This document shows positions 11,314 to 47,092 of a stretch of DNA of 64,000 nucleotides, one piece after another. A program made the translations under genes and the position numbers. Location of the stretch: the NCBI GenBank assembly GCA_016235445.1, contig JACRLB010000007.1, forward strand, positions 1 to 64,000, read 5' to 3'. The notes under the pieces are model-generated. The model did no database searches. It worked only from the letters and a program-made list of their open reading frames with translations, and was not told the origin of the DNA. Source of the DNA: Chloroflexota bacterium (GTDB taxonomy: Bacteria; Chloroflexota; Anaerolineae; Anaerolineales; Villigracilaceae). The stretch's first letter is position 1; every line of letters starts with the position of its first letter.

Positions 11314-11343
11314 GTAAAATTCAGCCCGGAGTTGACTTGTAAT

Positions 11344-11736
11344 ATGTCAGAACTTAACAAAGGCACAGTTTTATACGTGGAGGATAATTCGGACAACAGG
11401 AATTTGATCCGCAGGGTTTTGGGCGCGGAGGGATACTCTGTTGTTGACGCTGTTAATGCAGGCCAGGCAATCGAAAAACTTGAGGGTAACAAGATTGACC
11501 TGATATTGATGGATATTAATATGCCCGACATGGATGGGTACACTTTAACGATGAAGATCAAGGGAATTCAGAAATTCTCGAATATTCCCATTGTTGCAGT
11601 GACTGCAAATGTAATGCGCGGAGACCGCGAAAAATCACTTGAAGCGGGATGCGATGGTTATATTCAAAAACCAATTGACATTGATACGCTTTCCCAGCAG
11701 ATCGAGCGTTTTATGACAAGGAGTTCAAATGCCTGA
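11344..11736 (+). CDS. Single-domain response regulator (CheY/DivK-like)
   Basis: This is a stand-alone receiver of about 130 residues. It has the acidic pocket VEDN, the phosphoacceptor Asp in ILMDINMPDMDG, the Thr/Ala switch region VAVTANVM and the conserved Lys in IQKPID. With no output domain it would act by protein contact, as CheY or DivK do. The ATG at 11344 is preferred over an in-frame TTG at 11332 because CCCGGAG lies just upstream at a usable distance. It is the first gene of the sensory operon and overlaps the next gene by 8 bases. Confidence 0.92.
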   Translation: MSELNKGTVLYVEDNSDNRNLIRRVLGAEGYSVVDAVNAGQAIEKLEGNKIDLILMDINMPDMDGYTLTMKIKGIQKFSNIPIVAVTANVMRGDREKSLEAGCDGYIQKPIDIDTLSQQIERFMTRSSNA

Positions 11737-12187
11737 CCAGAACCAACCCCCTGCTGTATCCGATACACAGCCTATTCGAAAGCCCAATATTCCGAAGGAT
11801 GCCGCTGTGCTGGTGGTTGAGGATAATGTTTCAAATTTCGTTTTGATCGCTCGTATGCTTGGCTATCTTGGGGTGCATTGTGAATGGAAAACATCGGGGT
11901 ATGAAGTTTTGGAATATGCCGATACACTCCCCCGCCTGGATTTGATTCTGATGGATATCCGCCTTCCGTATGAAGATGGGTACGGCGCTTTGAAGAAAAT
12001 CCGCGCGTCTGAGCGGTTTAAATCCGTGCCGATTATTGCCGTTACAGCGGAGGCAAGCATGGAACAGATGAAGAAGGCCCAGGAATCTGGTTTTGACGGC
12101 TTTTTAGGAAAGCCGCTCGACCCAGATCGTTTTCCGGACCAAATCCGCCGTATCCTGAGCGGTGAACCCGTCTGGGAATTTAGTTAA
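11729..12187 (+). CDS. Single-domain response regulator with N-terminal tail
   Basis: The 152-residue product is a proline-rich tail of about 27 residues followed by a receiver domain: VVEDNVSN, phosphoacceptor in ILMDIRLPYEDG, IIAVTAEASM and the conserved Lys in LGKPLD. The start lies inside the end of the preceding receiver gene, with AAGGAG upstream, showing translational coupling. The two receivers are clear paralogues and could be alternative acceptors for the hybrid kinase encoded at the far end of the same gene run. Confidence 0.9.
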   Translation: MPDQNQPPAVSDTQPIRKPNIPKDAAVLVVEDNVSNFVLIARMLGYLGVHCEWKTSGYEVLEYADTLPRLDLILMDIRLPYEDGYGALKKIRASERFKSVPIIAVTAEASMEQMKKAQESGFDGFLGKPLDPDRFPDQIRRILSGEPVWEFS

Positions 12188-23421: not shown

Positions 23422-23546
23422 CGTTATTGGTTGATTTACCTCGTAAGAAACCCCAAAGGTCTTTTTGTTAATCGGGTTTGTACGAATGCCAGGCAGACCT
23501 GTAGGGCTTACGTGTACAGTAGAAAATGATTTACAAAAAGGTTAAG

Positions 23547-27639: not shown

Positions 27640-27677
27640 CCGCCGAAGAAGTGGAAGGAATTTTCGAGGTATACATC

Positions 27678-29030: not shown

Positions 29031-29049
29031 GAAAGCCCCGGAGCGCGAA

Positions 29050-30815: not shown

Positions 30816-33338
30816 ATGAATCAGCCCCAACTCAAAATGCCATTCATTCTCCGCAGACTTTTATCAGTGCCATTAAGCCTGCGCGGAAAATTGATCGTGG
30901 GCAACATGCTCATTACGCTCCTGGCCATTCTTGGCATGGGCTATTATGTATATTACCGGGCGCAGGAATCCAACAGATACCTCACAAGCCGGTTGGAGCA
31001 AAGTGTCACCCAAAACGAAGAAGAACAATTAACCGCAATTATCGAAGAACAGTCAACGCAATTAAATTCTTTCTTTTCTTCCAAAAGCCGCGACATCACC
31101 CAGATAGGGGCAAACCTCAACAACTTATTAAGCCGCGAATCCCTGCTCAACAACGGCGCCTACTGGGATGCGTCCGTGTCTTTAACCACCCTCCCCGGCG
31201 GAAGTTGGGACAATTCCAACACCGAGCCATCCTCGATCTTTATCCCGCTGGATGTTCGGAAATTAAATCCCTCATTGATCTCACAGCTAAATACGATCAA
31301 ATTAACTGAAACCATCATCCCACCAATCCTTGAAGCCAACCCGGAGATCATCGCCATTTATTTCGGGGGTACTTCCAAGGAAACAATATATTACCCAAAC
31401 ATAGACCTGGCAAATATCGTACCGCCAGATTTCGATGTAACCCAACGACCCTGGTATATTGCGGCAGACCCATCCGATAACCCCGATGGAAAAGTCATTT
31501 GGTCAGACCCATACCAGGACGCCGCATTGCACGGACTTGTGGTAACCACCAGCATCCCCGTATTCGACTCGAACAATAGATTTCGCGGCGTTGCGGCAAT
31601 GGACATTCAGCTCAACAGCATCACCAACATTATCTCGAACATTAGCATTGGCGAAAGCGGCTACGCCATTTTGATAGACCGCAACAACAAATTAATAGCC
31701 TTTCCCCCGGCCGGCTACGATGATTTTGGCGTAACGCCTGAAACCTTGCCGCTTGGCGAAATCATCGATCCCGCCAAACTTCCCGGCATACCGCCCTCAT
31801 TTTTCGAAACTCTCTCGAAAATCTCTGCGGGTGAAAGCGGTTCCACCACAATAAAAATCAACGATATAGAAAGACATATTTACTACCGCCCGCTCCCGGA
31901 AGTTGGATACGGCCTGGCCATCCTTGTTTCTGAAATAGAATTACATGCAGATGCGATCATTGCCAATGAAGAATTGGTTCAGCAATCCCAAAACACGATC
32001 CTGACAAGTTTAATTTTGATCGTCGCAATCCTCCTTACAGCCTCCATAGCCTCGCTCGGGATGGGCAACGCGCTTACCGCTCCTTTGACCTCCCTGCGGC
32101 AAACCGCCGAAAAAATCGCGGGTGGAAACCTCGATGCGCGCGCAGACATTCACAACCAGGATGAGATCGGCGCTCTCGGGCGGGCCTTGAACACCATGGC
32201 CGCAGAATTAAGAAAATCTTTTGTTTCCCTCGAGCAAGGCGTGGCAGAGCGAACGTACGAACTCGAAATTTCCCGCACACAAAGCGAGCGCCGCGCAGGC
32301 GAACTCCAATCCATCAGCGAAATATCCAAGGTGATTACCGGTGAACAAAAATTAAATGTACTGCTCCCGTTAATCGCCAACCTTGTCAGTGACCGCCTCG
32401 GCTTCTATCACACAGGCATATTCCTCATCGACGAATCAGGCAAATATGTTGTTCTGCAAGCCGCAAGCAGCGAAGGCGGAAAAATCATGCTCGCGCGCGG
32501 TCACAAACTGGAAACTGGCGAGAGCGGAATTATCGGCCAGGTTGCAAAATTCAGCGCCCCCCGCATCCTGCTCAACGTTGGGCCTGATACGGTTTTCTTC
32601 AACAACCCCGACCTCCCAGACACACGCTCTGAAATGGCCCTGCCATTGACCGCCCGCAACAAAATCATTGGCATACTCGATCTGCAAACCACAAAACCCG
32701 GCGCATTCACAGACGCAGAATTGAACACCATGAGCATCCTTGCAGACCAAATTGCCATCGCCATTGAAAACGCCCGTCTCTTCCAGCAAACACAGCAGGC
32801 ATTAACCGAAGCAGAAAGCCTGTACCGGCAAAATATCCAGGAAAGCTGGGAAGAGTTCAGCCGCAGTGAAGCGGCCATTGGATACCGTCAAACATTAACA
32901 AGCGGCGAAAAACTGGTAAACCCCATCGACACAGACGAAATCCGCCAGGTGATGAACCGCGGCAACTCCCTGGTGTCCAATGCCAGCGAAACCCATCAGG
33001 AAGCGTCCATTGTCATTCCAATCAAATTGCGCGGACAGGTAATCGGCGCATTAAAAGTCAACGCCCCCGAACAGGATCGAACCTGGACGAGCGACGAGGT
33101 CAACCTTGCAGAGACGATTTCAGAGCGGCTCTCCCTGTCCATTGAAAATGCCCGCCTGATCCAGGAATCTCAACGCCATGCCTTCAAAGAACAGACCATC
33201 AGCGAAGTGACCGGAAAGATCAGCGCATCCATTAACCTAAAAAATGTTCTGCAAACCGCAGTGGAAGAATTGGGACGCGCCATGCCAGGTTCTGAAGTGA
33301 TCATCGAATTCGAACAAAAGAACGGGAAAGTGGATTAA
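30816..33338 (+). CDS. Receptor 10: dCache sensor, HAMP, GAF module
   Basis: This 840-residue protein has TM1 near 26-47 and a large double-Cache extracellular domain to about 385, with YYPNIDLANIVPPDFDVTQRPWY-type Cache ligand segments and GVAAMDIQLN. TM2 is near 388-410, HAMP follows (LRQTAEKIAGGNLDARA), then a coiled coil. The GAF at about 475-650 has LGFYHTGIFLIDE, GESGIIGQVAKFSAPRILLN, DTRSEMALPL and ILDLQTT. The second GAF (IPIKLRGQVIGALKVNA) and tail LKNVLQTAVEELGRAMP follow. It is built like receptors 4 and 6 and lies 44 bases after receptor 9. Confidence 0.88.
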   Translation: MNQPQLKMPFILRRLLSVPLSLRGKLIVGNMLITLLAILGMGYYVYYRAQESNRYLTSRLEQSVTQNEEEQLTAIIEEQSTQLNSFFSSKSRDITQIGANLNNLLSRESLLNNGAYWDASVSLTTLPGGSWDNSNTEPSSIFIPLDVRKLNPSLISQLNTIKLTETIIPPILEANPEIIAIYFGGTSKETIYYPNIDLANIVPPDFDVTQRPWYIAADPSDNPDGKVIWSDPYQDAALHGLVVTTSIPVFDSNNRFRGVAAMDIQLNSITNIISNISIGESGYAILIDRNNKLIAFPPAGYDDFGVTPETLPLGEIIDPAKLPGIPPSFFETLSKISAGESGSTTIKINDIERHIYYRPLPEVGYGLAILVSEIELHADAIIANEELVQQSQNTILTSLILIVAILLTASIASLGMGNALTAPLTSLRQTAEKIAGGNLDARADIHNQDEIGALGRALNTMAAELRKSFVSLEQGVAERTYELEISRTQSERRAGELQSISEISKVITGEQKLNVLLPLIANLVSDRLGFYHTGIFLIDESGKYVVLQAASSEGGKIMLARGHKLETGESGIIGQVAKFSAPRILLNVGPDTVFFNNPDLPDTRSEMALPLTARNKIIGILDLQTTKPGAFTDAELNTMSILADQIAIAIENARLFQQTQQALTEAESLYRQNIQESWEEFSRSEAAIGYRQTLTSGEKLVNPIDTDEIRQVMNRGNSLVSNASETHQEASIVIPIKLRGQVIGALKVNAPEQDRTWTSDEVNLAETISERLSLSIENARLIQESQRHAFKEQTISEVTGKISASINLKNVLQTAVEELGRAMPGSEVIIEFEQKNGKVD

Positions 33339-33398: not shown

Positions 33399-35393
33399 AT
33401 GGCATTTGATTCCGACCTTCAAAATCCATCCACGCCACGGGGATCTTTGCAGGAAAATATCCTTGCCAATATTAGCGTCCCCTGGAAACTAAATTTACTC
33501 ATTCTGGTTATGATCATCGGAATCATAGCGGTTTTCTCCACCGCTTTGCAAGGCATTAACGCCATTCAAAACCAACAACAGTACTACTTCACTTCCATCA
33601 GTGCATCCATCACCGCGCTGAATGACGCCGACATTGCCCTGGGTGAGATACAAACCGAGTTGATCCTGCTTGAAAATACAGCCCTATCACCGCAAGAAAT
33701 AAACAACCATCTGGAAAAAATCACAAACGCCGAGAATATAGCGGCATCCACATTGCAGGAATATGAAACAGACTGGCTCCCTCTCTTGGAATCAACTCTC
33801 AACTCAGGAATTCCTCAAAATAGAAAAGAGGAAATCCAACAAACCCTGGAAGCGCTTCAAAATGACGAGATTTTACTCTTCGCTCAAATCAACAATAATT
33901 ACCAGGCATACACTGCGGAATCCGCTGTTTATTATCAAAATATAAAAAAAGGGAAGTATGACGAACAGGTGGAAGATCAGATCACCAATCTCCTTACTTT
34001 AACACACCCTTCTCTCAGGCAATTGATTTCGATGCACAGTGAAAGACAACTCCTGTCCAACGAAATCTCCCAATCCATATATCTGGACCTTGGCGTTCGA
34101 ATGATTTTCGCATTAGCCCTGGCAGTTGGAATCGGCTTGATATTTGCAAACTCTGTTGCACGCTCGATCAGTTCCCGCCTGGACATCCTTGGCAACAATG
34201 CATTAGCTCTGCAAGACGACCTTCTCGATCGCCGCTCCAATATCTCTGTGATAGGAAATGACGAGATCGCCCTCGTATCCAGATCGTTCGACGAAATGTC
34301 CGGACGCCTCAGGGAAATGTTTGCAGACCTTGAAAATAAAGTAAAGGAACGCACCGTAAAACTCGCCGCCGCAACTGCCGAAAGCAACAAGCGCGCCCAA
34401 CAGTTCGAAGCCATTACCATCGTAGCGCGCGCCATCAGCGCTACTCCGAATTTACAGGAACTGCTCCCTCAAATATCCAGCGCCATCAGCGAACAGTTTG
34501 GCTTTTATCATGTCGGCATCTTCCTGAACGATCCCACCAACCAAACTGCCATGCTTCTCGCGGCAAACAGCGAAGGCGGAAAGAAAATGCTCCAGCGCAA
34601 TCACCAACTCAGAATCGGCGAACAAGGCATCGTAGGCTACGTCACCCAAACTGGAAAATCACGCATCGCACTGGATGTGGGAGAAGACGCGAATTACTTT
34701 GACAACCCGGAACTGCCTTCCACCCATTCTGAAATGGCCCTGCCCCTCAAAACAGGCGGACAGGTCATCGGCGCATTGGATATTCAAAGCACAGAGGTTG
34801 GCGCATTTACCGACGATGATTTCGAAGCCCTCTCAGCTTTAGCCGAACAAGTCAGCCTTGCCATTCAAAACGCCCGCCTCTTCGACCAGATAAAAAAGAC
34901 ACTTTCAGAATCCGAATCGATTCAACGCCAATACATCCGCGAATCCTGGGGACGCCTCTCAAAGGAAGAAAAACTAAGCGGATTCTGGTATTCAGGCGCA
35001 GGCGTCATCCCACTGGATGACGAATCAAAAATCGCCGCAAGTGAAGAAACAAACGAAAAACGCAGGATCAGCGTACCCATCAGCCTGCGCGGCGAAACCA
35101 TTGGCACACTCTCCGTGCAGGTCCAAAAAAACCAACACGTCAGCGCAGACCAGGTTGACCTGATCAAGGCTGTCGCAGAAAGCGTTGCCCTCTCCGCTGA
35201 AAACGCCCGCCTCTTCGAGGAAACCTCCACCCGCGCCGAGCGGGAACGTCTCGTTTCCGAAATCACCACAAAAATACGCACAACCAACGACCCGCAGGAA
35301 ATGATCCACACCGCCGTGGATGAACTAAAACGCGCATTGGGTGTCACCCGCATAGAGATCGTTCCGCAAAAAATGACGCCCCCGGACAATTAA
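33399..35393 (+). CDS. Receptor 11: helical-bundle sensor, HAMP, GAF module
   Basis: This 664-residue protein has TM1 near 30-51 and an all-helical extracellular region to about 225, rich in Gln, Asn and Glu, resembling a four-helix-bundle chemoreceptor sensor. TM2 is near 228-250 and HAMP follows. The GAF at about 315-490 has FGFYHVGIFLND, GEQGIVGYVTQTGKSRIALD, STHSEMALPL and ALDIQSTE. The second GAF (VPISLRGETIGTLSVQV) and the tail PQEMIHTAVDELKRALG follow. It is the last receptor before the ParA and kinase genes. The extracellular domain differs from all others in the run. Confidence 0.87.
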   Translation: MAFDSDLQNPSTPRGSLQENILANISVPWKLNLLILVMIIGIIAVFSTALQGINAIQNQQQYYFTSISASITALNDADIALGEIQTELILLENTALSPQEINNHLEKITNAENIAASTLQEYETDWLPLLESTLNSGIPQNRKEEIQQTLEALQNDEILLFAQINNNYQAYTAESAVYYQNIKKGKYDEQVEDQITNLLTLTHPSLRQLISMHSERQLLSNEISQSIYLDLGVRMIFALALAVGIGLIFANSVARSISSRLDILGNNALALQDDLLDRRSNISVIGNDEIALVSRSFDEMSGRLREMFADLENKVKERTVKLAAATAESNKRAQQFEAITIVARAISATPNLQELLPQISSAISEQFGFYHVGIFLNDPTNQTAMLLAANSEGGKKMLQRNHQLRIGEQGIVGYVTQTGKSRIALDVGEDANYFDNPELPSTHSEMALPLKTGGQVIGALDIQSTEVGAFTDDDFEALSALAEQVSLAIQNARLFDQIKKTLSESESIQRQYIRESWGRLSKEEKLSGFWYSGAGVIPLDDESKIAASEETNEKRRISVPISLRGETIGTLSVQVQKNQHVSADQVDLIKAVAESVALSAENARLFEETSTRAERERLVSEITTKIRTTNDPQEMIHTAVDELKRALGVTRIEIVPQKMTPPDN

Positions 35394-35411: not shown

Positions 35412-36200
35412 ATGCTAAAAACCATAGCCGTATCAAACGAAAAAGGCGGAGTGGCCAAAACCACCACCACCCTCTCCCTGGGCGCCGCCCTGATGGAGTT
35501 GGGCAACCGCGTTCTATTGATCGACCTGGACGCCCAGGCCAACCTAACCCTTGCGCTTGGCTTCGAACCAGGAGAAAACGAAAACACCTCCAGCAACATC
35601 ATGCTGGATAACATGCCCCTGCTCGATGTCTGCAAAAAAACCGAAGTAAAAAACCTCGACCTCATTCCCTCGAGTTCGCGCATCGAAATATCGGAGCAAT
35701 TCCTGCCTGTGCGCACGAGCTACACCACCATTCTACAACGCGCCATTCGCACCGTGCCCAACCTTCCTTATGATTACATCGTCCTAGACTGCCCCCCCGC
35801 GCTTGGGGCAATCACAAAAAACGCGCTCGCCGCCTCAGACCTCCTGCTCATCCCAACCCAGGCAGAATACTTCTCAGCCTACGCGCTTCGCAACATGATG
35901 GCGCTCATCCGCAACATCCGCGAACAGGATAACCCCAACCTCGCCTATCGCATCCTCGTCACCATGCTGGACAGGAGAAACCGCACCCATCGCAACATCC
36001 ACGAACAACTTCGCTCCACCTTTGGCGAAGGCATCTTCAACACCGTCATCGAAATGGACACAAAATTACGTGAAAGCCCCATCGCAGGGCTTCCCATCAC
36101 CCAGTACAAATCCGGCGCGCGCGGTTCCACCCAATACCGCGTTCTCGCTCAGGAGCTAATGGAATATGCCAAAGAAACCGAAAATAGACAAGCGGCTTAA
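35412..36200 (+). CDS. ParA/Soj-family ATPase (orphan, within sensory operon)
   Basis: This 262-residue protein has the deviant Walker A motif KGGVAKTTT at 11-19, a Walker A' DLDAQANL at about 38-45 and Walker B YIVLDCPPALG. These are diagnostic for the ParA/Soj/MinD superfamily that forms ATP-dependent dimers on the nucleoid. There is no parB or origin feature nearby. Instead it lies between the receptor genes and the hybrid kinase and overlaps the kinase start by 35 bases. ParA homologues in chemotaxis operons position receptor or kinase clusters, so a positioning role for this array is a reasonable inference. GAGGTAG precedes the ATG. Confidence 0.9.
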   Translation: MLKTIAVSNEKGGVAKTTTTLSLGAALMELGNRVLLIDLDAQANLTLALGFEPGENENTSSNIMLDNMPLLDVCKKTEVKNLDLIPSSSRIEISEQFLPVRTSYTTILQRAIRTVPNLPYDYIVLDCPPALGAITKNALAASDLLLIPTQAEYFSAYALRNMMALIRNIREQDNPNLAYRILVTMLDRRNRTHRNIHEQLRSTFGEGIFNTVIEMDTKLRESPIAGLPITQYKSGARGSTQYRVLAQELMEYAKETENRQAA

Positions 36201-39200
36201 CAAACTCTTCAAGGATATCCAACCCGAAGAGAATGTCATTAGGAAGGGTGACAGGCCCAGGGCGAAGGAAGAAGCGGCGCCTCCCTCCCCGCCGAAGGCT
36301 GTTCAAAAAAATCCCGAATCAGCCGCCTCCCCGATTCCAACCCGCAGAAGGCAAACCGCCGGGCTGTATTCGCCGGAAACAATGAACAGGGCAGAAGCCA
36401 TCTCCACAGATTCATCCGCCTATTCCGTGAATATTCAAACAGGCGAACAGGATTGGGTAACCATGCGGCTGTTGGATGAACAACAGCCGCGCCAGTGGTC
36501 CAGCGACGAGCAATTGCTCATCAAACAGGTGACAGATCAATTATCCCTGGCAATGGAAAACGCGCGCCTGTTCCAGGAAACGCAAAAACGCGCGCAGGAA
36601 CTGGCCGCGGTTAACGAAGTGGTTTCATCCGTTGCGGGCGCACTGGATCTTAAACATACCCTGAAAAAAATTGCGGACAATCTGCTGAAGATACTTTCGG
36701 CCGGGCGCGTTGGCATCACATTGATGAACCCTGAAAAAAACGCCCTGATTCTGACCGCAGATGCGGTATCCATTTTTGGGACTTCAACAAATATCGGTCT
36801 GCCCATTCCAATTGCCGGCAACCCCGCCACCGAGCAGGTAATTCACACACGCAAACCAGTTTTCATTCAGGATGCCCCCAACAACCCCTTATCAGGCCCC
36901 ATCCGAGACGCCCTGCTCGAACGCGGCACAAAGAACCTGCTGATCCTGCCCCTGCTGGCGGAAGATGAAGTGATCGGCACCATTGGCGTGGATTTTTACG
37001 ACCTGGACCGCCTGATCACCGAGGATGAACTGCGTATTCTCGAAAACATCGTTTATCAAACTGCCACCGCAATTCAAAAAAACCAACTCTTTGAACGCAT
37101 CGGGCAATCTGAATCGGATTTACGCGCCTTGTTCAACTCGATGGAAGATGTTGTGCTGGTCATGAGCGCAGACGGGCGCTACGAACGCATTGCGCCGACC
37201 AACCCCGCGCGCCTGATTCGCCCGCCGGAAGAACTGCTCGGAAAATTCGTGCATGAAGTTCTGCCCAGGGAAACCGCAGAGCGTTTTGTGGCCGCCATTC
37301 AGCAGACCTTGAACAGCCCCGAAAAAGTTCAACTGGAATATGAATTACCTGTCGGGAATGAATCATTTTGGTTTCTTGCCAACCTAACCAAACTCGCTGA
37401 AGACAAGGTCTTCTGGGTGGCGCGAGATATCACCGAGCGTAAAAAAGCGGAGGAGGCCATCCGCCGCAGGAACGAATACCTGGCTGTTTCCGCCGAGATC
37501 GGGAAGCTGGTTACCTCCACATTGGATTTGAATTCGATCTTTGCGCGCACCGTGAACTTGATCAATGAGCGGTTTAATTTTTACTACGCCGCAATCTACA
37601 TTGTGGAAGAGACCGGGTTCAACGCCACCCTGCGCGAGGCAACCGGCGCGGCTGGCGTTGAAATGAAAAAACAAAATCATTCCTATCCGATCAATCTCAA
37701 ATCGACGGTGGGCAAGGTGGCGTCGGAAGGGCAGGCGCTGGTCGTCAACGATATCAGAACCAACCCTCTGCACGTCGGCAATCCCTCACTACCGAACACC
37801 AAAGCGGAAGCCGCCATCCCCCTGCGGATTGGCAACCGCATCATCGGCGTCATCGATATTCAATCGGAGAACACAGGCGCGTTCACCGAAGATGAGGTGG
37901 CAGTCTTACAAACTCTCGCAGACCAGGTTGCGGTGGCAATTGACAATGCCCGCTCCTTCGAGCTTTCACAGCAAGCCGTTATGGAAATGCGCGAGATCGA
38001 CCGCCTGAAAAGCCAGTTCCTGGCCAACATGAGCCATGAACTCCGCACGCCTCTCAATTCGATCATCGGCTTTTCACGCGTCATCCTAAAAGGGATTGAC
38101 GGGCCGGTGACGGAATTGCAACAGCAAGACCTGACCGCCATTTACAACTCCGGCCAGCACCTGCTGGGTCTCATCAACGATATTCTCGATCTGGCAAAGA
38201 TCGAAGCGGGCAAAATGGAACTGGCCTTCGACGAGGTCAACATTTCGGATGTGGCCAACAGCGTGCTTTCCACCATGAGCGGTTTGGTAAAAGACCGTCC
38301 GATTCAGATAAAGCGGGTAATCGAGCCGAACCTGCCAACGGTCCGGGCAGATGCGATTCGTGTCCGCCAGGTGATGATCAACCTGCTGTCCAATGCCGCC
38401 AAATTCACGGAGGAAGGCGATATCATCGTGGAAGTGGGACTCAAACCCGGTGCGCAGGGCCGCAACGAAATCAGGATAAGCGTGGTGGATACGGGGCCGG
38501 GTATTTCCGAACAAGATCAGGAAAAGCTGTTCCAGCCCTTCTCGCAAGTGGATGACTCTCCCACCCGCAAAACAGGCGGCACGGGTTTGGGCCTGTCCAT
38601 TTGCCAGCAACTGATCAACATGCATGGCGGGCGCATTTGGGTTGAAAGCGAGGTGGGGAAAGGGAGCATGTTCTCCTTTACCCTGCCGCTCTTCCGCAAG
38701 GAAAGGGAAAACGATACTCAGCCGAACGGAAATAAAATCATCCTTTCGATAGATGATGACCCGCAAGTTGTTGGGCTGTACGAAAGATACCTGCATCCAC
38801 AGGGGTATCAGGTTATGCCATTAACCGACCCCTCCCGCGCGGTGGAACGCGCGCGCCAATTGAAACCGTTTGCAATTACACTGGATATTATGATGCCCGG
38901 CATCGACGGCTGGCAGGTTTTGGACGCCCTGAAAGGCGACCCGGTGACCCGCCACATACCAGTCATTGTTTGCAGTATCATCGAAGACTTGGAAAAAGGC
39001 TTCAACCTCGGAGCCTCTGACTATCTCGTCAAGCCCATTCTCGAGGATGATCTGGTCAACGCGCTTGACCGCCTGAATGCGGACGGTTCCATTCGGGATG
39101 TGCTGGTTATCGACGATAACCCGGATGACCTGCGCCTGATCGCAAAGATATTGAGCGATGACGGCAGGTACAAAGCCATTCTGGCCGAAGGCGGAAGCAA

Positions 39201-39483
39201 CGGTTGGAATATAATCTCCACTGGAAACCCGCCGCACGCCATCATCCTGGACCTGTTCATGCCAGACATGAACGGCTTTCAAATTCTCGAGAAGTTACAG
39301 GCCGATAAAAAACTGCGCGATATTCCAACCATTGTCATCAGCGGCCTAGAGTTGTCGTTGGAACAAAAGAATCAGCTGACTGAATTTGGGCGGCAGGTGC
39401 TGGCCAAGGGAGAGTTCAGCGAAAAGGAATTGCTGACGTCCATTCAACGTTCACTGGAACGAATCCAGGCAGGCAACAAGTAA
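36166..39483 (+). CDS. Soluble hybrid histidine kinase (GAF-GAF-PAS-GAF-HK-REC-REC)
   Basis: This 1105-residue protein has no membrane segment. After a basic, Pro-rich N-terminus it carries the C-terminal half of the receptor-type GAF (about 88-145, ending LSLAMENARLFQETQ). Then come a GAF (about 150-310), PAS (about 318-430) and another GAF (about 440-600). The dimerisation/phosphoacceptor helix has His624 in MSHELRTPL, and the ATPase carries DTGPGI and GGTGLGLSI. Receiver 1 has Asp907 in LDIMMPG and VKP; receiver 2 has Asp1029 in LDLFMPD but KG instead of KP. It is translationally coupled to parA, with AGGAG upstream. It is the only kinase on the receptor strand and is the likely shared output of receptors 1-11. 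Confidence 0.92.
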   Translation: MPKKPKIDKRLNKLFKDIQPEENVIRKGDRPRAKEEAAPPSPPKAVQKNPESAASPIPTRRRQTAGLYSPETMNRAEAISTDSSAYSVNIQTGEQDWVTMRLLDEQQPRQWSSDEQLLIKQVTDQLSLAMENARLFQETQKRAQELAAVNEVVSSVAGALDLKHTLKKIADNLLKILSAGRVGITLMNPEKNALILTADAVSIFGTSTNIGLPIPIAGNPATEQVIHTRKPVFIQDAPNNPLSGPIRDALLERGTKNLLILPLLAEDEVIGTIGVDFYDLDRLITEDELRILENIVYQTATAIQKNQLFERIGQSESDLRALFNSMEDVVLVMSADGRYERIAPTNPARLIRPPEELLGKFVHEVLPRETAERFVAAIQQTLNSPEKVQLEYELPVGNESFWFLANLTKLAEDKVFWVARDITERKKAEEAIRRRNEYLAVSAEIGKLVTSTLDLNSIFARTVNLINERFNFYYAAIYIVEETGFNATLREATGAAGVEMKKQNHSYPINLKSTVGKVASEGQALVVNDIRTNPLHVGNPSLPNTKAEAAIPLRIGNRIIGVIDIQSENTGAFTEDEVAVLQTLADQVAVAIDNARSFELSQQAVMEMREIDRLKSQFLANMSHELRTPLNSIIGFSRVILKGIDGPVTELQQQDLTAIYNSGQHLLGLINDILDLAKIEAGKMELAFDEVNISDVANSVLSTMSGLVKDRPIQIKRVIEPNLPTVRADAIRVRQVMINLLSNAAKFTEEGDIIVEVGLKPGAQGRNEIRISVVDTGPGISEQDQEKLFQPFSQVDDSPTRKTGGTGLGLSICQQLINMHGGRIWVESEVGKGSMFSFTLPLFRKERENDTQPNGNKIILSIDDDPQVVGLYERYLHPQGYQVMPLTDPSRAVERARQLKPFAITLDIMMPGIDGWQVLDALKGDPVTRHIPVIVCSIIEDLEKGFNLGASDYLVKPILEDDLVNALDRLNADGSIRDVLVIDDNPDDLRLIAKILSDDGRYKAILAEGGSNGWNIISTGNPPHAIILDLFMPDMNGFQILEKLQADKKLRDIPTIVISGLELSLEQKNQLTEFGRQVLAKGEFSEKELLTSIQRSLERIQAGNK

Positions 39484-39501: not shown

Positions 39502-41154
39502 GTGTCATTTATTATCAAATGCCTGGATTGCGGGCACAATGCGCCCTACTATCCAACATCCTCCACCTGCCCCAAATGCGGCAGTCAATGGAGGGAAGCG
39601 GAATACGACTATGAGCGGATCGGGAAAACCCTGCCCGCACTGCTTTCTACAAGGCCGGCCGGCCTTTGGCGGTATCGGGAATTACTGCCTGTTCGAAATC
39701 CCAATGTCAGCCTTTCTCTCGGCGAAGGAAGCACCCCGTTGATCCGCGCCGGGAATTTGGGCATGATGCTCGGTTGCCCCAACATTTACATCAAAGACGA
39801 AAGGCAGGGGCCAACCTCCTCTTTTAAGGACAGGCAGGCCGCAGTAACCATTGCCGCCCTCAAAGAAGCAGGCATCACCGAAATGGTCGCCGCTTCCACT
39901 GGGAATGTGGCAATATCCTATTCGGCATACGCCTCCCGCGCAGGGATGAAGCTATGGGCCTTCGTAACCAGCCTTGTTCCAGCGGTAAAGATGCGCGAGA
40001 TCGCGCTTTACGGAAGCCAGGTAATCAAGATTACCGGCTCGTACGACCAGTGCAAGCAGGTGGCTTCCGAGTTTGCACGTCAACGCCGCTTGTATCAGGA
40101 TATGGGCGCGCGCACCATCACATCCATCGAGGCTATGAAAACCATTGCCTTTGAAATTGCCGAACAATTGACCGCCGTACAGGGACCCGGCGAAAACAGT
40201 CCCTGGCGCACACCCGATTGGTACGTGCAGGCCATCAGCGGCGGCATGGGGCCTCTGGGTGTTTACAAAGGTTTCCGCGAAATGAAACAGATGGGATGGA
40301 TCGACCGCATTCCAGCATTTGCCCCCATCCAGGCGGAGGGATGCGCGCCCATGGTAGATAGCTGGAAAAAAGGCCTGGACAAAGCCGAGCCGGTAAAATC
40401 ACCGAAAACACGCATCGAAACCCTGGCCACCGGCGACCCCGGGCGTTCCTATGAATTTTTGCGCGAACACGTCAACAATACCCACGGGGCATTCGAAAGC
40501 GTGAGTGACGAAGACGCCTTCCGCGCCATGCACGTTCTCGCAAAGATGGAGGGTATCTCCGCTGAACCCGCCGCCGCCGCCGCATTTGCAGGCTTATTCA
40601 AGCTGATCCGCGCCGGGGTCATCAAACCCAGCGATACGGTTGTGGTCAATTGCACCGGGCACACCATGCCGGCCGAGCCGGGCATCCTTGGAGACAACTG
40701 GTCGCGCGATGTCAAATTCCCGACCGTTGAAGAGACTCCGCAAGAAGGCCTGCTCTCCGCGCTTACGCAGGTTGCCCCCGAACGCTTCCCCAAGATCGTA
40801 ATCGTGGAAGATACCACCGAAGCGCGGCGTCTTATTCGCCGCATCCTGCAATCGCAGGGAAATTTTACAATCATGGAAGCAGTCAACGGGCGCGAAGGAC
40901 TCGAACTCATCCAGAAGGAACTGCCTGACCTCATCATCCTCGATTTGATGATGCCTGAAATGGATGGCTTTACCGTTATCGAATCACTGCGAGCCAACCC
41001 CGAAACTGCGACCATCCCCGTTATTGTTGCCACGGCAAAAGAGTTAACCCCCGATGAAAAAAGCAGGCTGGGCGGCCAGATACAATCCCTGATGCAAAAG
41101 GGTGATTTCCTCAATGACGAATTTCTGGAAGAAGTAAAGTCGTTAATAAAATAA
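39502..41154 (+). CDS. Threonine synthase-like PLP enzyme fused to a receiver domain
   Basis: The 550-residue protein starts with GTG. Residues 7-26 form a zinc ribbon (Cys7, Cys10, Cys23, Cys26). A fold type II PLP-enzyme domain spans about 70-415, with GEGSTPL, the PLP-binding Lys109 in SSFKD, STGNVAIS, a glycine loop SGGMGPLG, and CTGHTMP near the end. This matches threonine synthase, which converts O-phosphohomoserine to threonine. Residues about 431-550 form a response-regulator receiver with VEDT, phosphoacceptor Asp481 in IILDLMMPEMDG and a KGDF in place of KP. It follows the hybrid kinase by 18 bases. Phosphorylation-controlled enzyme activity is inferred from the fusion and context. 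Confidence 0.88.
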   Translation: MSFIIKCLDCGHNAPYYPTSSTCPKCGSQWREAEYDYERIGKTLPALLSTRPAGLWRYRELLPVRNPNVSLSLGEGSTPLIRAGNLGMMLGCPNIYIKDERQGPTSSFKDRQAAVTIAALKEAGITEMVAASTGNVAISYSAYASRAGMKLWAFVTSLVPAVKMREIALYGSQVIKITGSYDQCKQVASEFARQRRLYQDMGARTITSIEAMKTIAFEIAEQLTAVQGPGENSPWRTPDWYVQAISGGMGPLGVYKGFREMKQMGWIDRIPAFAPIQAEGCAPMVDSWKKGLDKAEPVKSPKTRIETLATGDPGRSYEFLREHVNNTHGAFESVSDEDAFRAMHVLAKMEGISAEPAAAAAFAGLFKLIRAGVIKPSDTVVVNCTGHTMPAEPGILGDNWSRDVKFPTVEETPQEGLLSALTQVAPERFPKIVIVEDTTEARRLIRRILQSQGNFTIMEAVNGREGLELIQKELPDLIILDLMMPEMDGFTVIESLRANPETATIPVIVATAKELTPDEKSRLGGQIQSLMQKGDFLNDEFLEEVKSLIK

Positions 41155-41194: not shown

Positions 41195-42142
41195 TTGCCA
41201 AAAAAACAAACAGCCGGGATTGCGGCGGCATTTAGCTCAGCGTTCTTCCTCGGGTTGGCGCCTGTTTTTGGAAAACTCGCCATCACCCAGGGATTCACCC
41301 CTTTGGCAGTGGTGGCGCTGCGCACAGGCTTTGCCGCTGGAATACTCTTCCTGGTTGTTTTGCTTTTCTACCGCCAATACCTTTATATCTTCCCGGTCGG
41401 GTTGGTAGGCTGTATTCTTGCAGGCACAATTAATGGGTTGGGCTCCCTGCTGTATTATCTCGCGCTCGAACGGCTCGATGCAAGTTTGGGACAGTTGCTC
41501 TACTCGTTGTACCCATTCTTTGTGGCGCTCTGGCTTGTGCTCGACCATCAACCCCCCAGCCGCCTGACATTTTTTCGCATCATCCTTGCAACGATTGCGG
41601 TTCTGTTGCTTACCAGCGTCCCCGGCCGTTCTGTGGATGCCAGCGGAGTACTCATGATGATCGGCGCCGCAGTGCTTTACGCCATGCACCTGCCCATCAA
41701 TCAGCGCGTGCTTTACGAAGTCCCCGCCCCCACCGTGGCGCTTTACACACTGCTTTCGATGAGCGCAGTGGTCATCCCAGCCTATTTTTTATTCGACCGC
41801 GCCTGGCCAGCCACAGGCATCCCCTGGCCGCCCGTGGCTGGGCTAACCTTCGTCACCGTCTTTTCAAGAATTGCCCTGTTCCTGGGGGTGAAGAAGATTG
41901 GCGGAATGCAAACCGCATTATTGGGACTCGCCGAACTTTTGATTGCGATCTTCTTTAGCAGTATTTGGCTTGGCGAAAGCCTTTCCCCCCTCCAATGGAT
42001 GGGCGCGCTCGGACTTACCGTCAGCCTGATCCTGGTAATGTACGAACATCCCCCCGCCCCGACGCATAGCGGGAGAACCGGCTGGCTTTCGTGGATTCGC
42101 GCACCAGGCCTGCCAAAGGATATTTTTGGCCCGTACGAATAA
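41195..42142 (+). CDS. EamA/DMT-family transporter
   Basis: The 315-residue protein has about ten hydrophobic segments in two EamA-type halves (VVALRTGFAAGILFLVVLLF; GTINGLGSLLYYLALERLDASLGQLLYSLYPFFVALW; LLGLAELLIAIFFSSIWLGE). This is the signature of the drug/metabolite transporter superfamily, which exports small metabolites such as amino acids. The start is TTG with AAGG about 10 bases upstream. It follows the PLP-enzyme gene by 40 bases, so threonine or related amino-acid export is an open but untested idea. It ends at a strong terminator. Confidence 0.85.
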   Translation: MPKKQTAGIAAAFSSAFFLGLAPVFGKLAITQGFTPLAVVALRTGFAAGILFLVVLLFYRQYLYIFPVGLVGCILAGTINGLGSLLYYLALERLDASLGQLLYSLYPFFVALWLVLDHQPPSRLTFFRIILATIAVLLLTSVPGRSVDASGVLMMIGAAVLYAMHLPINQRVLYEVPAPTVALYTLLSMSAVVIPAYFLFDRAWPATGIPWPPVAGLTFVTVFSRIALFLGVKKIGGMQTALLGLAELLIAIFFSSIWLGESLSPLQWMGALGLTVSLILVMYEHPPAPTHSGRTGWLSWIRAPGLPKDIFGPYE

Positions 42143-42182: not shown

Positions 42183-42911
42183 TTATTTATCGCCTTCGTA
42201 TAAATAGCCCGTTCCTCGCACGCTGACCACCTGCTCTGAAAGGGAGGGGAACTGCTCCAGCTTGTGCCTCAAACGGCTGACCAGCGGGCGCAGGATCTCC
42301 GGCGCTTCCTGCTGGGAGGTGTCGTAACCCTGAACCAGCAAAACCAATTCACGGTGCGAAAAAACCTTCCCTTTATTTTCCATCAAAATCTTCAGCAGGC
42401 GGCCTTCCGCGGGGGTCAGGTGTTCAATTTTGCTTTTGAACTTGATCTGGCGGCGCGAGAGATCCACGGTTGTGCCGTCTTTCAAGTTGAAAACTTCCTG
42501 GCCGCCTTCATCTGCCAAAGAGACGCTATTCAGGTGAGACCTGGCCGAGCGGCGGGAGAGTCCTTTTTTCACTGTGGAAATGATCTGCGCCGGGGATGCG
42601 GGTTTCAAAAGATAATCGTGAATTCTCAGGCGCAAGGCCTGGATGGCAGTTTCAGTGGAGCCGTACGCCGTCAGCAGGATTACCTCGGTTTCCGGCGAAA
42701 CCTGGTTGACCACCTGCACCACTTCCAGCCCGTCCATGCCGGGCATTTTCAGGTCTACGATCATCAAGTCCACGTTGTGCGTGCGGACATATTCAACTGC
42801 GGCCTGTCCGTTTGGCGCAGAGGCAACGATGTGGCCTTCCAGTTTTAGGATATCGGTGAGGGACTGTCTGGCGACAGGCTCGTCATCTACAACCAGAATA
42901 TTCGATTTCAT
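42183..42911 (-). CDS. OmpR/PhoB-like response regulator
   Basis: The 242-residue protein has a receiver with VVDDE, phosphoacceptor Asp53 in VDLKMPG, a TAYG switch and LLKPAS. A linker and a winged-helix DNA-binding domain follow (LTPAEGRLLKILMENKGKVFSHRELVLLV...RPLVSRLRHKLEQ...VSVRGTGYLY). The order matches the OmpR/PhoB class of transcription regulators, although the receiver resembles the NtrC-type TETAIQALR group. It overlaps the upstream kinase gene by 4 bases (ATGA) and is therefore its likely partner. Target genes are unknown; control of the neighbouring receptor operon is possible. Confidence 0.93.
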   Translation of the reverse strand: MKSNILVVDDEPVARQSLTDILKLEGHIVASAPNGQAAVEYVRTHNVDLMIVDLKMPGMDGLEVVQVVNQVSPETEVILLTAYGSTETAIQALRLRIHDYLLKPASPAQIISTVKKGLSRRSARSHLNSVSLADEGGQEVFNLKDGTTVDLSRRQIKFKSKIEHLTPAEGRLLKILMENKGKVFSHRELVLLVQGYDTSQQEAPEILRPLVSRLRHKLEQFPSLSEQVVSVRGTGYLYEGDK

Positions 42912-44488
42912 TGTATTCCTCCTGCAGGTAAGAATATGCGGAAACAGGCGCCGGGCCCGCGGTCTGGCAGGTATTCCAATACGCCGCCGTGCGCTGTAAT
43001 TATATTGTAACTCACAGTCAGCCCCAAGCCGGTACCGCCGTCTTTTGTGCTGAAAAACGGTTCGAAGATATTGGTCTGTTTTTCTTTTGGGATGCCATTA
43101 CCGTTGTCCTGAAAAATGATCTCGACGCCCTGGCGTATCGAGCGGGCTGTGATGTGCAATTTGCCGCCTTGCGGCATGGCATCGGCGGCGTTTAGGATGA
43201 GGTTGATAAACACCTGTTGGATCTGGCTGTTGACTGCCATGATTGCCAGGGGCTGTGCGGGGAAATCGGCTTCCACGGTTACATTGGTTTCAGTAAGCTG
43301 TTTGGACATCAACGTAACGATGTATTGGAGCGCCTCAGCCAGGTTTATAGTTTCAAGAGAACTTGCGCCGGGGCGGTAGAAATCCAACATGCGGCGGACG
43401 GTGAGCATGAGTCGTTCGAGTTCGGTGCGCGCGAGGTCGAAATATTCCTTGCGCTTTTCTTCGGGCAGGTCTTCGCGGCCGGCCAGGTGCAGGCAGTTTT
43501 GCACGGCTTGTAATGGGTTGTTGACTTCGTGCGCGATGGATGCGCTCAGGCGTCCTGCGGCGGCCATTTTCTCGGCTTGCAATAATGCCTTTTGGGATTC
43601 TTCCACCTTGCGGACGTAGTCCAATTGTTCGGCGTACAAACGCGCATTCTCCAGCGCGGCAATGGACTGGCGCGCTAAAATCTGGAACATCTCGAGGTCT
43701 GATTCGTGGAAGGGGGGTTCGCCGACTGCGCGGGCGGCGTAGAGCATCATGCTCAGGTTGGGGCGGAGGATTGGCGTCAGGATAACGGCGCCAAGCCCGA
43801 GCGCGGAAAGATGCGTTTTGAGGGTGGAGTCGCCTGGGCCGCTAGCGTTGATAAATAATGGGGCGGGGGATTCGTCTACGCGGGAAATTAAATCCAAATG
43901 CAGTTGGGAGGCGGGGAAACCGCGCGATGCGAGCAGGGAGTATTTTCCTGATTCGAATTCCAGTTGGTAGCAGGCGGCCTGTGAACATTGCATGTGGCCG
44001 CAGATGGCGTTGACGATGAGTTCGAGCAGGGGTTCGCGGCGGGTTTCAGAGAGCAGGGCTTCGGTGACGGAAAACAAGGGACGCAGGGCGCGGGTGCGGG
44101 CGGCGTCTCGTTTGGTTTGGCTGTCTGCGAGGGCAAGTTTTACGGCTTCGATCAATTCGTTGCCCTGGCTGAACGGTTTCAGCAGAAGGCCATCGACACC
44201 CTGCCGCAGGGCGCGGATGGCGGTTTCGACTGTGCCATGCCCGGTCATGATGAGCACGGCGGCATCGGGCTGGAGGCGTTGGGCGTGCTGGATCACTTCG
44301 AAGCCATCCACTTCGGGCATACGAATATCGACGAGCAGGAGGTTGATCTTGTTTTCTTTCAGGTATTCGATTGCTTTGCGCGGGTCGGTTTCTGTGGCGA
44401 CCTTGTACCCGGCGCGGGTGAGCAGGCGGTTGCAGAGCAATGCAATACCTGGTTCATCGTCCACTACGAAGACAAAAGGGTTTTCCAT
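42908..44488 (-). CDS. Receiver-GAF histidine kinase
   Basis: This 526-residue soluble kinase has an N-terminal receiver (Asp54 in LVDIRMPEVDG, LLKPFS), a GAF at about 140-290 and a coiled coil. The phosphoacceptor domain has His320 in SIAHEVNNPLQ, and the NtrB-type ATPase carries NLILNAADAMPQGG, FQDNGNGIP and GGTGLGLTVS. The kinase class (HExNNP) belongs to the family that pairs with NtrC-like receivers. It starts 6 bases after the larger GAF kinase gene and overlaps the regulator gene downstream. The N-terminal receiver suggests that it relays or is tuned by another kinase. Confidence 0.92.
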   Translation of the reverse strand: MENPFVFVVDDEPGIALLCNRLLTRAGYKVATETDPRKAIEYLKENKINLLLVDIRMPEVDGFEVIQHAQRLQPDAAVLIMTGHGTVETAIRALRQGVDGLLLKPFSQGNELIEAVKLALADSQTKRDAARTRALRPLFSVTEALLSETRREPLLELIVNAICGHMQCSQAACYQLEFESGKYSLLASRGFPASQLHLDLISRVDESPAPLFINASGPGDSTLKTHLSALGLGAVILTPILRPNLSMMLYAARAVGEPPFHESDLEMFQILARQSIAALENARLYAEQLDYVRKVEESQKALLQAEKMAAAGRLSASIAHEVNNPLQAVQNCLHLAGREDLPEEKRKEYFDLARTELERLMLTVRRMLDFYRPGASSLETINLAEALQYIVTLMSKQLTETNVTVEADFPAQPLAIMAVNSQIQQVFINLILNAADAMPQGGKLHITARSIRQGVEIIFQDNGNGIPKEKQTNIFEPFFSTKDGGTGLGLTVSYNIITAHGGVLEYLPDRGPGACFRIFLPAGGIQ

Positions 44489-44494
44489 AATGTG

Positions 44495-47092
44495 TTAGAC
44501 GGGGAGCCAGACTTCGAAGGTGGAGCCGTGATCTGGCTTGCTTGAGATTTCGATGATTCCGCCGTGGTCGGCGATGATGCCGTAGGTGACGGAAAGACCC
44601 AGGCCTGTGCCGCCGCGATCTCCTTTGGTGGTGAAGAATGGTTCAAAGATGCGCCCCTGGTCTTCAGGGGAGATTCCGCTTCCGCTGTCTTGGACGCTGA
44701 GGATGACCCAGCTTCGTGATTCGCGTTTTGCAAGGTGGGTGCCGACTGTCAACTCGCCGCCGTTCTTCATGGCTTGCAGGGCATTGTGGATCAGGTTCAG
44801 CAGGACTTGCTTCATCTGGTTGGTGTCTATGGAAATCCAGGGCAGGTTTTCAGCAAGTTGAAGAACGAGGGTTACGTTATTGGTTTGGATGAGATGCTTT
44901 GTGAGTGCGATGACATCATGTACCACTTCGTTGATGTCGGCGCTGGTGCGCATCCGTTCACCCTGGCGGGAGAAATCCAACAGGCGGCGGACAACGCCGC
45001 TGGCGCGCCGCGCCTCTTGCAGGACCATTTCCAGTTCGTTGCGATGGGGAGAGTCTTTGGCGAGTTCATCCAAAACGATTTCGGAGAACCCGGTGACGGT
45101 GGTGAGCGGGTTGTTCAATTCGTGCGCGATGCCCGCCGCCATCTCACCGACTGCCGCGAGTTTGGCGGCTTGCAAAAGCCTGTTTTCGGCGGACTGCTGG
45201 GCTTCCATGCGGGCGTTCAATTCGATCTCGGTGGCGCGCAGTTGTCGGACGGTCTCCTGTAATTTTTGGGTTTGGTTGGCGCTGGAGATGACCGAAGCAA
45301 GAATGCCCGCCAGCGATTCCATGGCGATCAGGTCATTGTGCGAGAAGGCATTCTGTTCCCTGCTTTCCACGTCAATGATGCCGAGGATGGTTTCACCGTC
45401 TTTCACAGCCACGCAGACTTCGGAACGCGCTTCCCAGCCTTTGATGGCTTTGTACAAGCCATCCTGCGCTGTATCGTTGACGAGGATGCTTTCCCCACTG
45501 CGTGCGACCTGGCCTGTGACCCCATCCACTTTGATGAATTCGCCGCCCGCGAGCGCGGCTTTGAGAGTCTCTGCATGTGTGCCGCCAATGCCTTGAATGG
45601 CGAATTTTTGCTCATCATCCATCAGCAAAATAACGGCAAGCTCGTATTTGAAGTATTGCGCCACCAGTTCGGCGGCAATGGCGGCCACTTCGTTTTTATC
45701 GTTGAGGCCAATAACCTCCTGCACCACTTCGTGGATCAACCCCAGACTGCGCGCGCGGCCTTCCGCTTCTTCACGCAGGCGGGTGTATTCGATGAGTCCC
45801 GCCAGATGGCTGGCGATCACCACCATCAGGTGTTCGTCATATTGGCTGAAGGCTTCGGCGTAGGTGTTCTCGATGACAAGCGCGCCGATGGGCTGTCCGC
45901 GATATTTGAGCGGAACAACCAGCTCGGAACGCGCCCCTTTGTGGATGCCGATAAATCCCTCGCGTGTGGTTTCTGCGATGCGGCGGACACGTCCCTCTTT
46001 TAACACCGCTTGCATGGAATGCCCTGAAAGCGAAACGCTGATCACATTCAATTTGCCTTCGAACATGCGGTAGTCGCGCAGGATGCGCCCATCGCTGGAA
46101 CGCAGGAAAAGCGCGATCAATTCGGTGTTGAAGGCGCGGGTGAGCAGGCCGAACATGCGCCGCGCGATCTGGTCTAAATTTTGGGCGGAGGAAACTGTCA
46201 GCACAAAGTCATTGAGCAAGCCAAGCCTGCGAAGGTGCGAAGCCATTTCAGAAAATGTCACCACCACTTCCACCGAGGGCGGCACTCGCACCGCCAGGTC
46301 ACGCAGTTGTCCGCGCTCGGCCTGTGAGAATTCCTTTTGCCGCCACAACGCCACCACCCCAATGACCCGATGACCGATGACCAGCGGCAGACAGACCCAC
46401 GCATTTGCGCCCGACTTCAACGCGCCGTACGGGAGATTATCCCAATTAGGCTGGCCGCGCAGGATGAGCACATCCGCAAGGGATCGGTTCACTCGACGGA
46501 GAACAGGATTCTCGTCTATGAGCAGGGACCCCCCCTTGGCTTTTGGCGCGTTCCATTCCGCCTGAATGTCGAATGATTCGCCGCGCCGTATCGCGAGCCA
46601 CGCTCCCTGGCAAGGCACAGACTGCACGAAAGCGCCCAGCGTCTTTTCGAGGGCAAGCGGCAGATCGAAAGCCAGACCAGATTGCAGGTCAGGCAGGAAC
46701 GGTTGATTGGGCACAGCGCTCCGCCCTGAGAGCAGGGACGCGGTCAACTTCCAAATTCTCTGCGCCGTGGCAGATTGTTCATCCGCGCCGACGATGACAC
46801 TTTGGGAAGTGCCGTTGACTGGAAACGCATACATGCGCGCCGTATTAAGTTTGCTTCCTTCAGGGGTGGAGGTAAAACGGGAATAGCCCCCGCTGAGCGC
46901 GCCGCACAACCAGGCATCAATGGTGGGGGCGGCGAGAACGCCCATCAATTCATTTTGCGCCGCCTTGTTAAGTTTATATACAGAACGCAACAGCCACGCG
47001 CCTCCCACCCGCTCTGCAAGTACCGCCCACACCGCCTCGGAGAGTTGCGCCGCATCTTTGAGTTGAGTTTCTATGCCGTTTTCGGTTTGCAT
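44495..47092 (-). CDS. Multi-GAF histidine kinase
   Basis: The 865-residue soluble protein has an N-terminal region without a recognised domain (about 1-140). Three GAF domains follow at about 145-290, 295-450 and 455-625, joined by short helices. The third has GGEFIKVDGVTGQVARSGESILVND and VCVAVKDGETILGIIDVES. The phosphoacceptor His657 lies in GIAHELNNPL, and the ATPase has NLIHNALQAMKNGG, VQDSGSGISPEDQ and GGTGLGLSV. It is the first gene of the minus-strand operon. A TATAAT box (47112-47107) lies 14 bases before the ATG with no clear -35. Confidence 0.92.
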   Translation of the reverse strand: MQTENGIETQLKDAAQLSEAVWAVLAERVGGAWLLRSVYKLNKAAQNELMGVLAAPTIDAWLCGALSGGYSRFTSTPEGSKLNTARMYAFPVNGTSQSVIVGADEQSATAQRIWKLTASLLSGRSAVPNQPFLPDLQSGLAFDLPLALEKTLGAFVQSVPCQGAWLAIRRGESFDIQAEWNAPKAKGGSLLIDENPVLRRVNRSLADVLILRGQPNWDNLPYGALKSGANAWVCLPLVIGHRVIGVVALWRQKEFSQAERGQLRDLAVRVPPSVEVVVTFSEMASHLRRLGLLNDFVLTVSSAQNLDQIARRMFGLLTRAFNTELIALFLRSSDGRILRDYRMFEGKLNVISVSLSGHSMQAVLKEGRVRRIAETTREGFIGIHKGARSELVVPLKYRGQPIGALVIENTYAEAFSQYDEHLMVVIASHLAGLIEYTRLREEAEGRARSLGLIHEVVQEVIGLNDKNEVAAIAAELVAQYFKYELAVILLMDDEQKFAIQGIGGTHAETLKAALAGGEFIKVDGVTGQVARSGESILVNDTAQDGLYKAIKGWEARSEVCVAVKDGETILGIIDVESREQNAFSHNDLIAMESLAGILASVISSANQTQKLQETVRQLRATEIELNARMEAQQSAENRLLQAAKLAAVGEMAAGIAHELNNPLTTVTGFSEIVLDELAKDSPHRNELEMVLQEARRASGVVRRLLDFSRQGERMRTSADINEVVHDVIALTKHLIQTNNVTLVLQLAENLPWISIDTNQMKQVLLNLIHNALQAMKNGGELTVGTHLAKRESRSWVILSVQDSGSGISPEDQGRIFEPFFTTKGDRGGTGLGLSVTYGIIADHGGIIEISSKPDHGSTFEVWLPV

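Follow-up and report, generated by a model that had tools for sequence, protein, structure and literature searches.

A threonine-synthase-like PLP enzyme joined to a response-regulator receiver in Chloroflexota: a candidate enzyme-output response regulator

The window analyzed here, a stretch of 64,000 nucleotides from a Chloroflexota bacterium, carries on its forward strand (39502–41154) a single open frame of 550 codons, free of internal stops, which begins with GTG and has the sequence AGGAGA 5' of this start. Two domains of the 550-aa product are recognized by Pfam: PALP (PF00291, residues 72–386, E = 1e-64; 39715–40659), that of a fold-type II PLP enzyme related to threonine synthase, and Response_reg (PF00072, residues 432–521, E = 7e-20), the receiver being alignable to residue 550 (40789–41151). 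Zero further Pfam domains were found in the protein at E 0.001. The enzyme and the receiver (REC) are separated by a linker (40678–40788), whose limits were set by eye on the alignment. Lys109 (codon 39826–39828), the predicted Schiff-base lysine for PLP, lies in an SFKDR motif aligning with that of the Aquifex threonine synthase, and Asp481 (codon 40942–40944) is the predicted phosphoacceptor. At the N-terminus Cys7, Cys10, Cys23 and Cys26 form a CxxC...CxxC ribbon (39520–39579). The preliminary description of this DNA, which had read the frame as a zinc ribbon, a PLP enzyme and a receiver with Lys109 and Asp481 at these places, was correct; the four cysteines are kept in all 98 aligned fusions, though the ribbon is unmatched by any Pfam model at E 0.001.

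The gene directly upstream, as also described before, encodes a hybrid histidine kinase (36166–39483, forward strand; GAF, PAS, HisKA, HATPase and two REC domains by Pfam, no predicted transmembrane segment) and ends 18 bases before the fusion gene. It is presumed to be the cognate kinase. A ParA/Soj-like ATPase (35412–36200; Pfam AAA_31, 4e-50) is encoded 5' of the kinase, and an EamA-family (DMT) transporter (41195–42142; Pfam) 3' of the fusion, both on the forward strand. These genes belong to a 31-kb run of forward-strand genes (11332–42142), with the fusion near its end, which comprises two lone receivers, 11 kinase-less predicted membrane GAF sensors, the ATPase, the kinase, the fusion and the transporter. 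The run is referred to below as the island. Downstream of it, convergent genes on the reverse strand (42183–47092) encode an OmpR-type response regulator, a receiver-kinase and a GAF kinase; similar genes lie beside the fusion in several relatives.

The island opens with two single-domain receivers (11332–11736 and 11729–12187), similar to proteins in islands of other families. The sensors that follow have predicted membrane helices and GAF domains, several of them also HAMP, dCache/PDC or MASE11 domains, and a kinase domain was found in none of the 11. They are a HAMP-GAF4 protein (12196–16065), two MASE11-GAF proteins (16065–17663 and 17443–19329, the true start of the second being probably later), a PDC/dCache-HAMP-GAF protein (19331–21691), a multi-TM GAF protein (21697–23421), a HAMP-GAF protein (23526–25886) with a dCache match of 30 bits, below the cut-off of 45, a further multi-TM GAF protein (25909–27639), a TM GAF protein (27651–29030), a multi-TM GAF protein whose true start is probably later (28756–30771), a dCache-HAMP-GAF protein (30816–33338) and a predicted membrane GAF protein (33399–35393) with a HAMP match of 21.9 bits, below the cut-off of 25.

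The dCache-HAMP-GAF sensor contains F-x4-R-P-W-Y, Y-x-D and a later Asp, a combination that we take to resemble an amino-acid-binding signature. A pattern of this type, [YFLM]-x4-R-x-W-[YF], was found in eight sensors among 139 ORFs (the window and six of 14 other regions, two sensors being in G054) versus 0.57 expected in shuffles, the eight being partly orthologues and not independent. Y-x-D is present in seven of them and the later Asp in all eight. A comparable order of genes was seen in 14 other genomes, whose corresponding regions hold 12, 10, 11, 4, 4, 1, 3, 3, 1, 3, 7, 6, 0 and 3 kinase-less sensors, as labeled by BLAST similarity to the window's proteins and with some stretches ending early. 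A receiver pair like that at 11332 and 11729 precedes the sensors in other families, for example in G119, G162, G063, G125 and G471.

Full-length fusions (about residues 10 to 540, counted by hand from listings) occur in 198 Chloroflexota genomes, this number being the union of overlapping samples at four ranks. The one-frame fusion was found in 52/61 genomes of the family sample, 95/201 of the order sample, 77/249 of the class sample and 29/251 of the phylum sample. Within the class and beyond the order it is present in 64 of 234 genomes. Beyond the class it is carried by six of 220, one of family f79 and five of a single f90 genus; a sample of the class holding this genus gave 6/101, all within the genus, to which the carrier Herpetosiphon aurantiacus DSM 785 belongs. 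Since scoring in the order, class and phylum samples was confined to the five to seven best candidates of each genome, and many genomes are incomplete, the counts are lower bounds. In G110 (C5:131246–133000) and G076 (C1:132905–133582) the fusion was matched in split or partial form, which may reflect decayed copies or breaks in the assembly.

A sequencing or assembly error that welded two genes together would explain a frame of this kind as well, and no point supporting such an error was found. It is excluded, its probability being negligible, because the same frame recurs in assemblies of many genera and families, including the H. aurantiacus genome, and the close homologues are fused and not separate genes. 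The domain pair had been called very unusual, which may hold for the architecture generally but not within Anaerolineae, where it is common. A scan of contigs with six short peptide patterns gave 16 Chloroflexota fusions and 64 loci matching in the receiver region only among the best 80 loci of the matches listed. In a plasmid search one record, from Haladaptatus, covers more than 80% of the query, at 28% identity and in two pieces over separately annotated genes. As neither search gave a fusion elsewhere, restriction of the fusion to Chloroflexota is likely, though not proven.

For the study of conservation, 109 fusions were reduced to 98 by removing sequences that duplicated another over the last 500 residues; the 98 form 95 clusters at 95% identity and over-represent the window's own family. 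Invariant in all of them are, in the enzyme part, the four cysteines, Ser107-Phe108-Lys109-Asp110, Asn135, Lys213, Thr214, Ser246, Gly247, Gly250, Pro251, Gly386 and His387, and, in the receiver part, Asp437, Asp481, Pro485, Asp488, Gly489 and Lys533. Without exception, position 436 is occupied by Asp or Glu and position 511 by Thr or Ser. In the STGN loop Ser132, Gly134 and Asn135 are kept in 98/98 and Thr133 in 97/98. The receiver fold thus comes with the phosphoacceptor Asp, the acidic pair, the Thr/Ser and the Lys that define a response regulator, and the same chain contains what appears, from its invariant Lys109 and other residues, to be a catalytically plausible enzyme, as an enzymatic output requires.

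Both domains are under strong purifying selection. Between the window and locus L047 (97% identical, the closest relative compared) dN/dS equals 0.016 for both the enzyme and the receiver and 0.026 for the linker; in six further comparisons, whose synonymous sites are near or at saturation, it ranged from 0.018 to 0.057 where computable.

Receivers can serve as dimerization modules, and the receiver of the fusion could accordingly be present only for dimerization, for anchoring or as a phosphate sink, without control of the enzyme. Two features are consistent with such a role: Lys533 is followed by Gly534 in 96 of 98 fusions, not by Pro as in the common Lys-Pro, and the position three residues before this lysine, presumably the aromatic switch position of CheY, is Leu in 80 of 98. 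However, the residues of phosphorylation are all kept, the gene is linked to a kinase gene, and a pure scaffold need not keep the set of Asp, Thr/Ser and Lys, which makes this alternative highly improbable.

The best PDB sequence matches of the fusion are threonine synthases. They also lead a fold search with a low-confidence AlphaFold2 model (16-row alignment, mean pLDDT 59.9, pTM 0.50, fit for fold recognition only), with 28–31% identity to the leading bacterial ones; as the model is poor, the enzyme-receiver interface is not readable from it. With ThrC (TIGR00260; PDB 6nmx, 2zsj, 1uim, 2d1f) the fusion shares the fold-type II PLP enzyme, the SFKDR lysine and the STGN loop, and differs from it by a score below the curated cut-off, by the missing motif N-P-(Y/F)-R and by the added receiver. 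Among the best 25 of 125 NCBIfam matches, the cut-offs of all six threonine-synthase models are missed (265.8 of 303 bits, 204.1 of 421, 160.8 of 167.1 as the nearest, others lower), and the type-B fusion of the same genome, described below, and the fusion of H. aurantiacus also stay under the threonine-synthase cut-offs.

The motif N-P-(Y/F)-R, whose Arg we take to bind the substrate phosphate in threonine synthase, was found in 0/98 fusions. The column aligned with this Arg is never Arg or Lys in the 98, and Arg or Lys stands one position later in 32 of them; at this site the fusions read, for example, T-I-T-S-I-E-A-M-K-T or S-V-P-A-R-E-S-M-K-T. The full form N-S-x-N-P-(Y/F)-R-I-E-G-Q-K-T is present in the Aquifex threonine synthase and in a separate canonical ThrC of the same genome (L130; TIGR00260 293.8 of 167.1 bits). 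Counting the two fusions, 11 PALP matches were found in this genome, and three of its other PALP proteins pass at least one threonine-synthase cut-off. Besides L130 these are L129 (TIGR00260 181.7 bits), where N-P-F-T replaces the Arg form, and the stand-alone protein adjoining the second fusion (PRK08197 577.5 of 303 bits; TIGR00260 178.3 bits). Since L129 passes TIGR00260 without the Arg, this model alone does not track the motif. In a tree, 19 fusion PALP domains form one clade (support 0.70) apart from 12 other PALP proteins.

The enzyme could still be an additional threonine synthase that uses O-phosphohomoserine and is regulated by phosphorylation, as its closest structures and families are threonine synthases, the H. 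aurantiacus fusion falls short of TIGR00260 by 0.2 bits (166.9 against 167.1), and L129 exceeds this cut-off despite the missing Arg. The missed cut-offs, the lack of N-P-(Y/F)-R with a column that is never Arg or Lys and the presence of a canonical ThrC in the same genome argue against such an identity and make it distinctly unlikely. On the same grounds the name threonine synthase, implied by the preliminary description, was rejected as probably wrong, and the label "threonine-synthase-like" is used for what is probably not a threonine synthase. Cysteate synthase has a substrate different from that of threonine synthase. Like the fusion it is a threonine-synthase relative (TIGR03844; PDB 9k3c); the fusion, however, scores 114 of the 324.9 bits that its model requires, and the 9k3c chain, of 435 residues, is too short for an added receiver. 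A specific reaction was indicated neither by NCBIfam nor by the PDB sequence search.

The linkage to a kinase could be followed in 80 fusions, the other 18 of the 98 having less than 1.5 kb upstream; kinases were recognized by BLAST similarity to the kinase core of the window. In 73 of the 80 the end of a same-strand kinase gene lies no more than 300 bases upstream (no more than 35 bases in 50 of these), and in two such a gene lies farther upstream. Within 2.5 kb upstream none was detected in the remaining five (L062, L165, L174, L175 and L178).

Two main types of loci are distinguished. In type A, which includes the window, one or two receivers were detected on the kinase at 49 of the 58 paired loci, and an EamA gene follows on the same strand in 65 of the 75 loci with room (on the opposite strand in two, absent in eight). 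In type B the kinases of all 17 paired loci lacked a detected receiver, Pfam likewise finding none in the three type-B kinases scanned, and the EamA gene was found at 0/18 loci. On its 3' side the type-B fusion has a single-domain receiver gene in 15 of 17 cases, a two-receiver protein of 472 aa in another and nothing detected in the last, which is how a kinase and its response regulators are arranged. A ParA-like gene lies just 5' of the kinase in 24/39 type-A and 2/17 type-B loci with room.

The second PALP-REC protein of this genome (C42:34185–35786; L127:9168–10826), 49% identical to the first, belongs to type B and is adjoined by its own PDC-HAMP kinase, on which no receiver was found, and also by a lone receiver and a stand-alone protein of the threonine-synthase family. 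In H. aurantiacus a dCache-HAMP-GAF/PAS kinase of 1877 aa with no Pfam receiver is encoded directly upstream of the fusion, which has 545 aa, and a free receiver of 126 aa directly downstream. Some type-B fusions possess a second tandem receiver (PALP-REC-REC) and are about 700 aa long. PALP-REC-REC homologues are L178, L182, L184, L135–L137, L140, L141, L185 and L186.

In the larger enzyme tree type B forms one split (0.98), and in a smaller rooted tree it lies near the base and is not one clade. For 72 pairs the trees of the kinase core and of the PALP domain are correlated with r = 0.71, whereas 1000 label shuffles gave no value above 0.23; this agreement is inflated by shared species history. 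Two kinase subclades of 7 and 8 members mirror two type-B enzyme subclades, with the exception of L182 and L184, whose kinases fall outside the two type-B kinase clades, and the type-B kinases as a whole are not one split. A tree built from 116 receivers places 42 first receivers of fusions together with the 7 second receivers of PALP-REC-REC proteins and with no others. Of the other receiver groups, the last receiver of the kinase is on average the closest to the fusion receivers (34% versus 26–30%), which suggests capture of the receiver from the neighboring hybrid kinase, too weakly to be claimed.

The fusion is real and intact, and its active sites, its kinase neighbor and the recurring island are likewise established by the sequence. 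It is probably an enzyme-output response regulator, in which the kinase of the neighboring gene phosphorylates Asp481 and thereby switches the attached PLP enzyme. According to this scheme, signals would reach the type-A kinase from the co-encoded membrane sensors that have no kinases of their own, and the histidine kinase of the next gene upstream would phosphorylate Asp481 of the C-terminal receiver. Phosphorylation could then alter the activity of the attached enzyme, a threonine synthase relative with a different substrate site, so that the output would be amino-acid chemistry and not transcription. In type-A operons the co-encoded EamA-family transporter probably moves the substrate or the product. 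Direct phospho-control, proposed in the preliminary description, stands as the best reading, given that the two domains do share one chain, that the active-site residues of each are conserved and that a kinase gene usually lies just upstream; phosphotransfer, its sign and its effect on the enzyme, the substrate, the link from sensors to kinase and the cargo of the transporter are what we infer.

This scheme is favored by the occurrence of fusions in 198 genomes, the conserved residues, the purifying selection, the kinase linkage, the tree correlation, the type-B layout and the location of sensor modules within kinases at other loci, namely dCache-HAMP in H. aurantiacus, CHASE4-HAMP in L168 and PDC-HAMP in the type-B kinase of this genome. 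Because equivalent modules sit within the kinase elsewhere, the last of these observations supports, without proving, an action of the separate sensors on the kinase. Against the scheme speak the two receivers of the type-A kinase itself, which are possible phosphoryl acceptors, the five fusions with no kinase detected upstream, the Leu that mostly occupies the position three residues before Lys533, the inflation of the kinase/PALP tree agreement by shared history and the kinase tree, which did not group all type-B kinases.

The main rival reverses the flow of information. The PLP domain could act as a sensor of a ligand (an amino acid or PLP) which sets the rate of receiver phosphorylation or dephosphorylation, so that metabolism would feed the kinase network and catalysis would be incidental. 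The PLP-binding residues are kept in the fusions while the substrate motif of threonine synthase is absent from all 98, and extra receivers accompany the fusion, points that favor such a sensor. Yet the invariance of residues expected for catalysis, among them Lys109, Asn135 and the S-F-K-D residues, seemingly exceeds the needs of ligand binding alone, and a same-strand transporter 3' of the fusion at most type-A loci suits a chemical output. The reversed flow is thus considered unlikely, and an enzyme switched by its receiver is preferred.

Chemosensory arrays comprise receptors, CheA, CheY, CheB and ParC/ParA-like positioning proteins. The island resembles them in that a single kinase is encoded together with several receptors devoid of kinase domains, with single-domain receivers, with a receiver that has an enzyme as output and with a ParA-like ATPase, and differs in that its kinase is of the HisKA type; an MCP signaling domain, CheW and a CheA-type HPt/P1 domain were not found by Pfam at E 0.001 in the island proteins scanned. 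A bolder, quite unlikely reading makes the island an array-like hub, in which many kinase-less receptors, some with dCache and the amino-acid-type motif, would act on one ParA-associated kinase and through it on the free receivers and the PLP enzyme-receiver. An amino-acid-like product would be exported by EamA and maybe sensed again, closing a loop on a self-produced signal.

Enzyme-output response regulators are already known as a kind, CheB being, we assume, an example. The excerpted text of PMC5847659 treats receivers attached to metabolic enzymes as a class of response regulators, and the fusion has in common with them the receiver and enzyme in one chain, the conserved phosphoacceptor and the adjacent kinase gene. 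A threonine-synthase-like PLP output is not named in those excerpts. The archaeal enzyme-receiver fusions reported there are narrow, typically of one family or genus, whereas the PALP-REC fusion extends across many families of a class. Plant threonine synthase is allosterically activated by S-adenosylmethionine, according to the excerpted PMC9081730; this is control by a small molecule, in contrast to the presumed control of the fusion by receiver phosphorylation. A PALP-type output was not found described: among the matches listed by an open-access literature search none was evidently on the fusion or the island, and subscription response-regulator censuses may list the fusion.

The likely annotation of such proteins as "threonine synthase" is put in doubt by these data, which point to an uncharacterized activity in a class that is known largely from metagenomes. 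The fusion is approachable in H. aurantiacus DSM 785, a named strain with a sequenced genome. With as many as a dozen kinase-less sensors accompanying one kinase, the recurring island raises the question of the number of inputs that are integrated. In bacteria the output of a two-component system is mostly a transcription factor or a second-messenger enzyme; if confirmed, the PALP-REC fusion would be a widespread case of a sensor kinase directly switching an amino-acid-type PLP enzyme.
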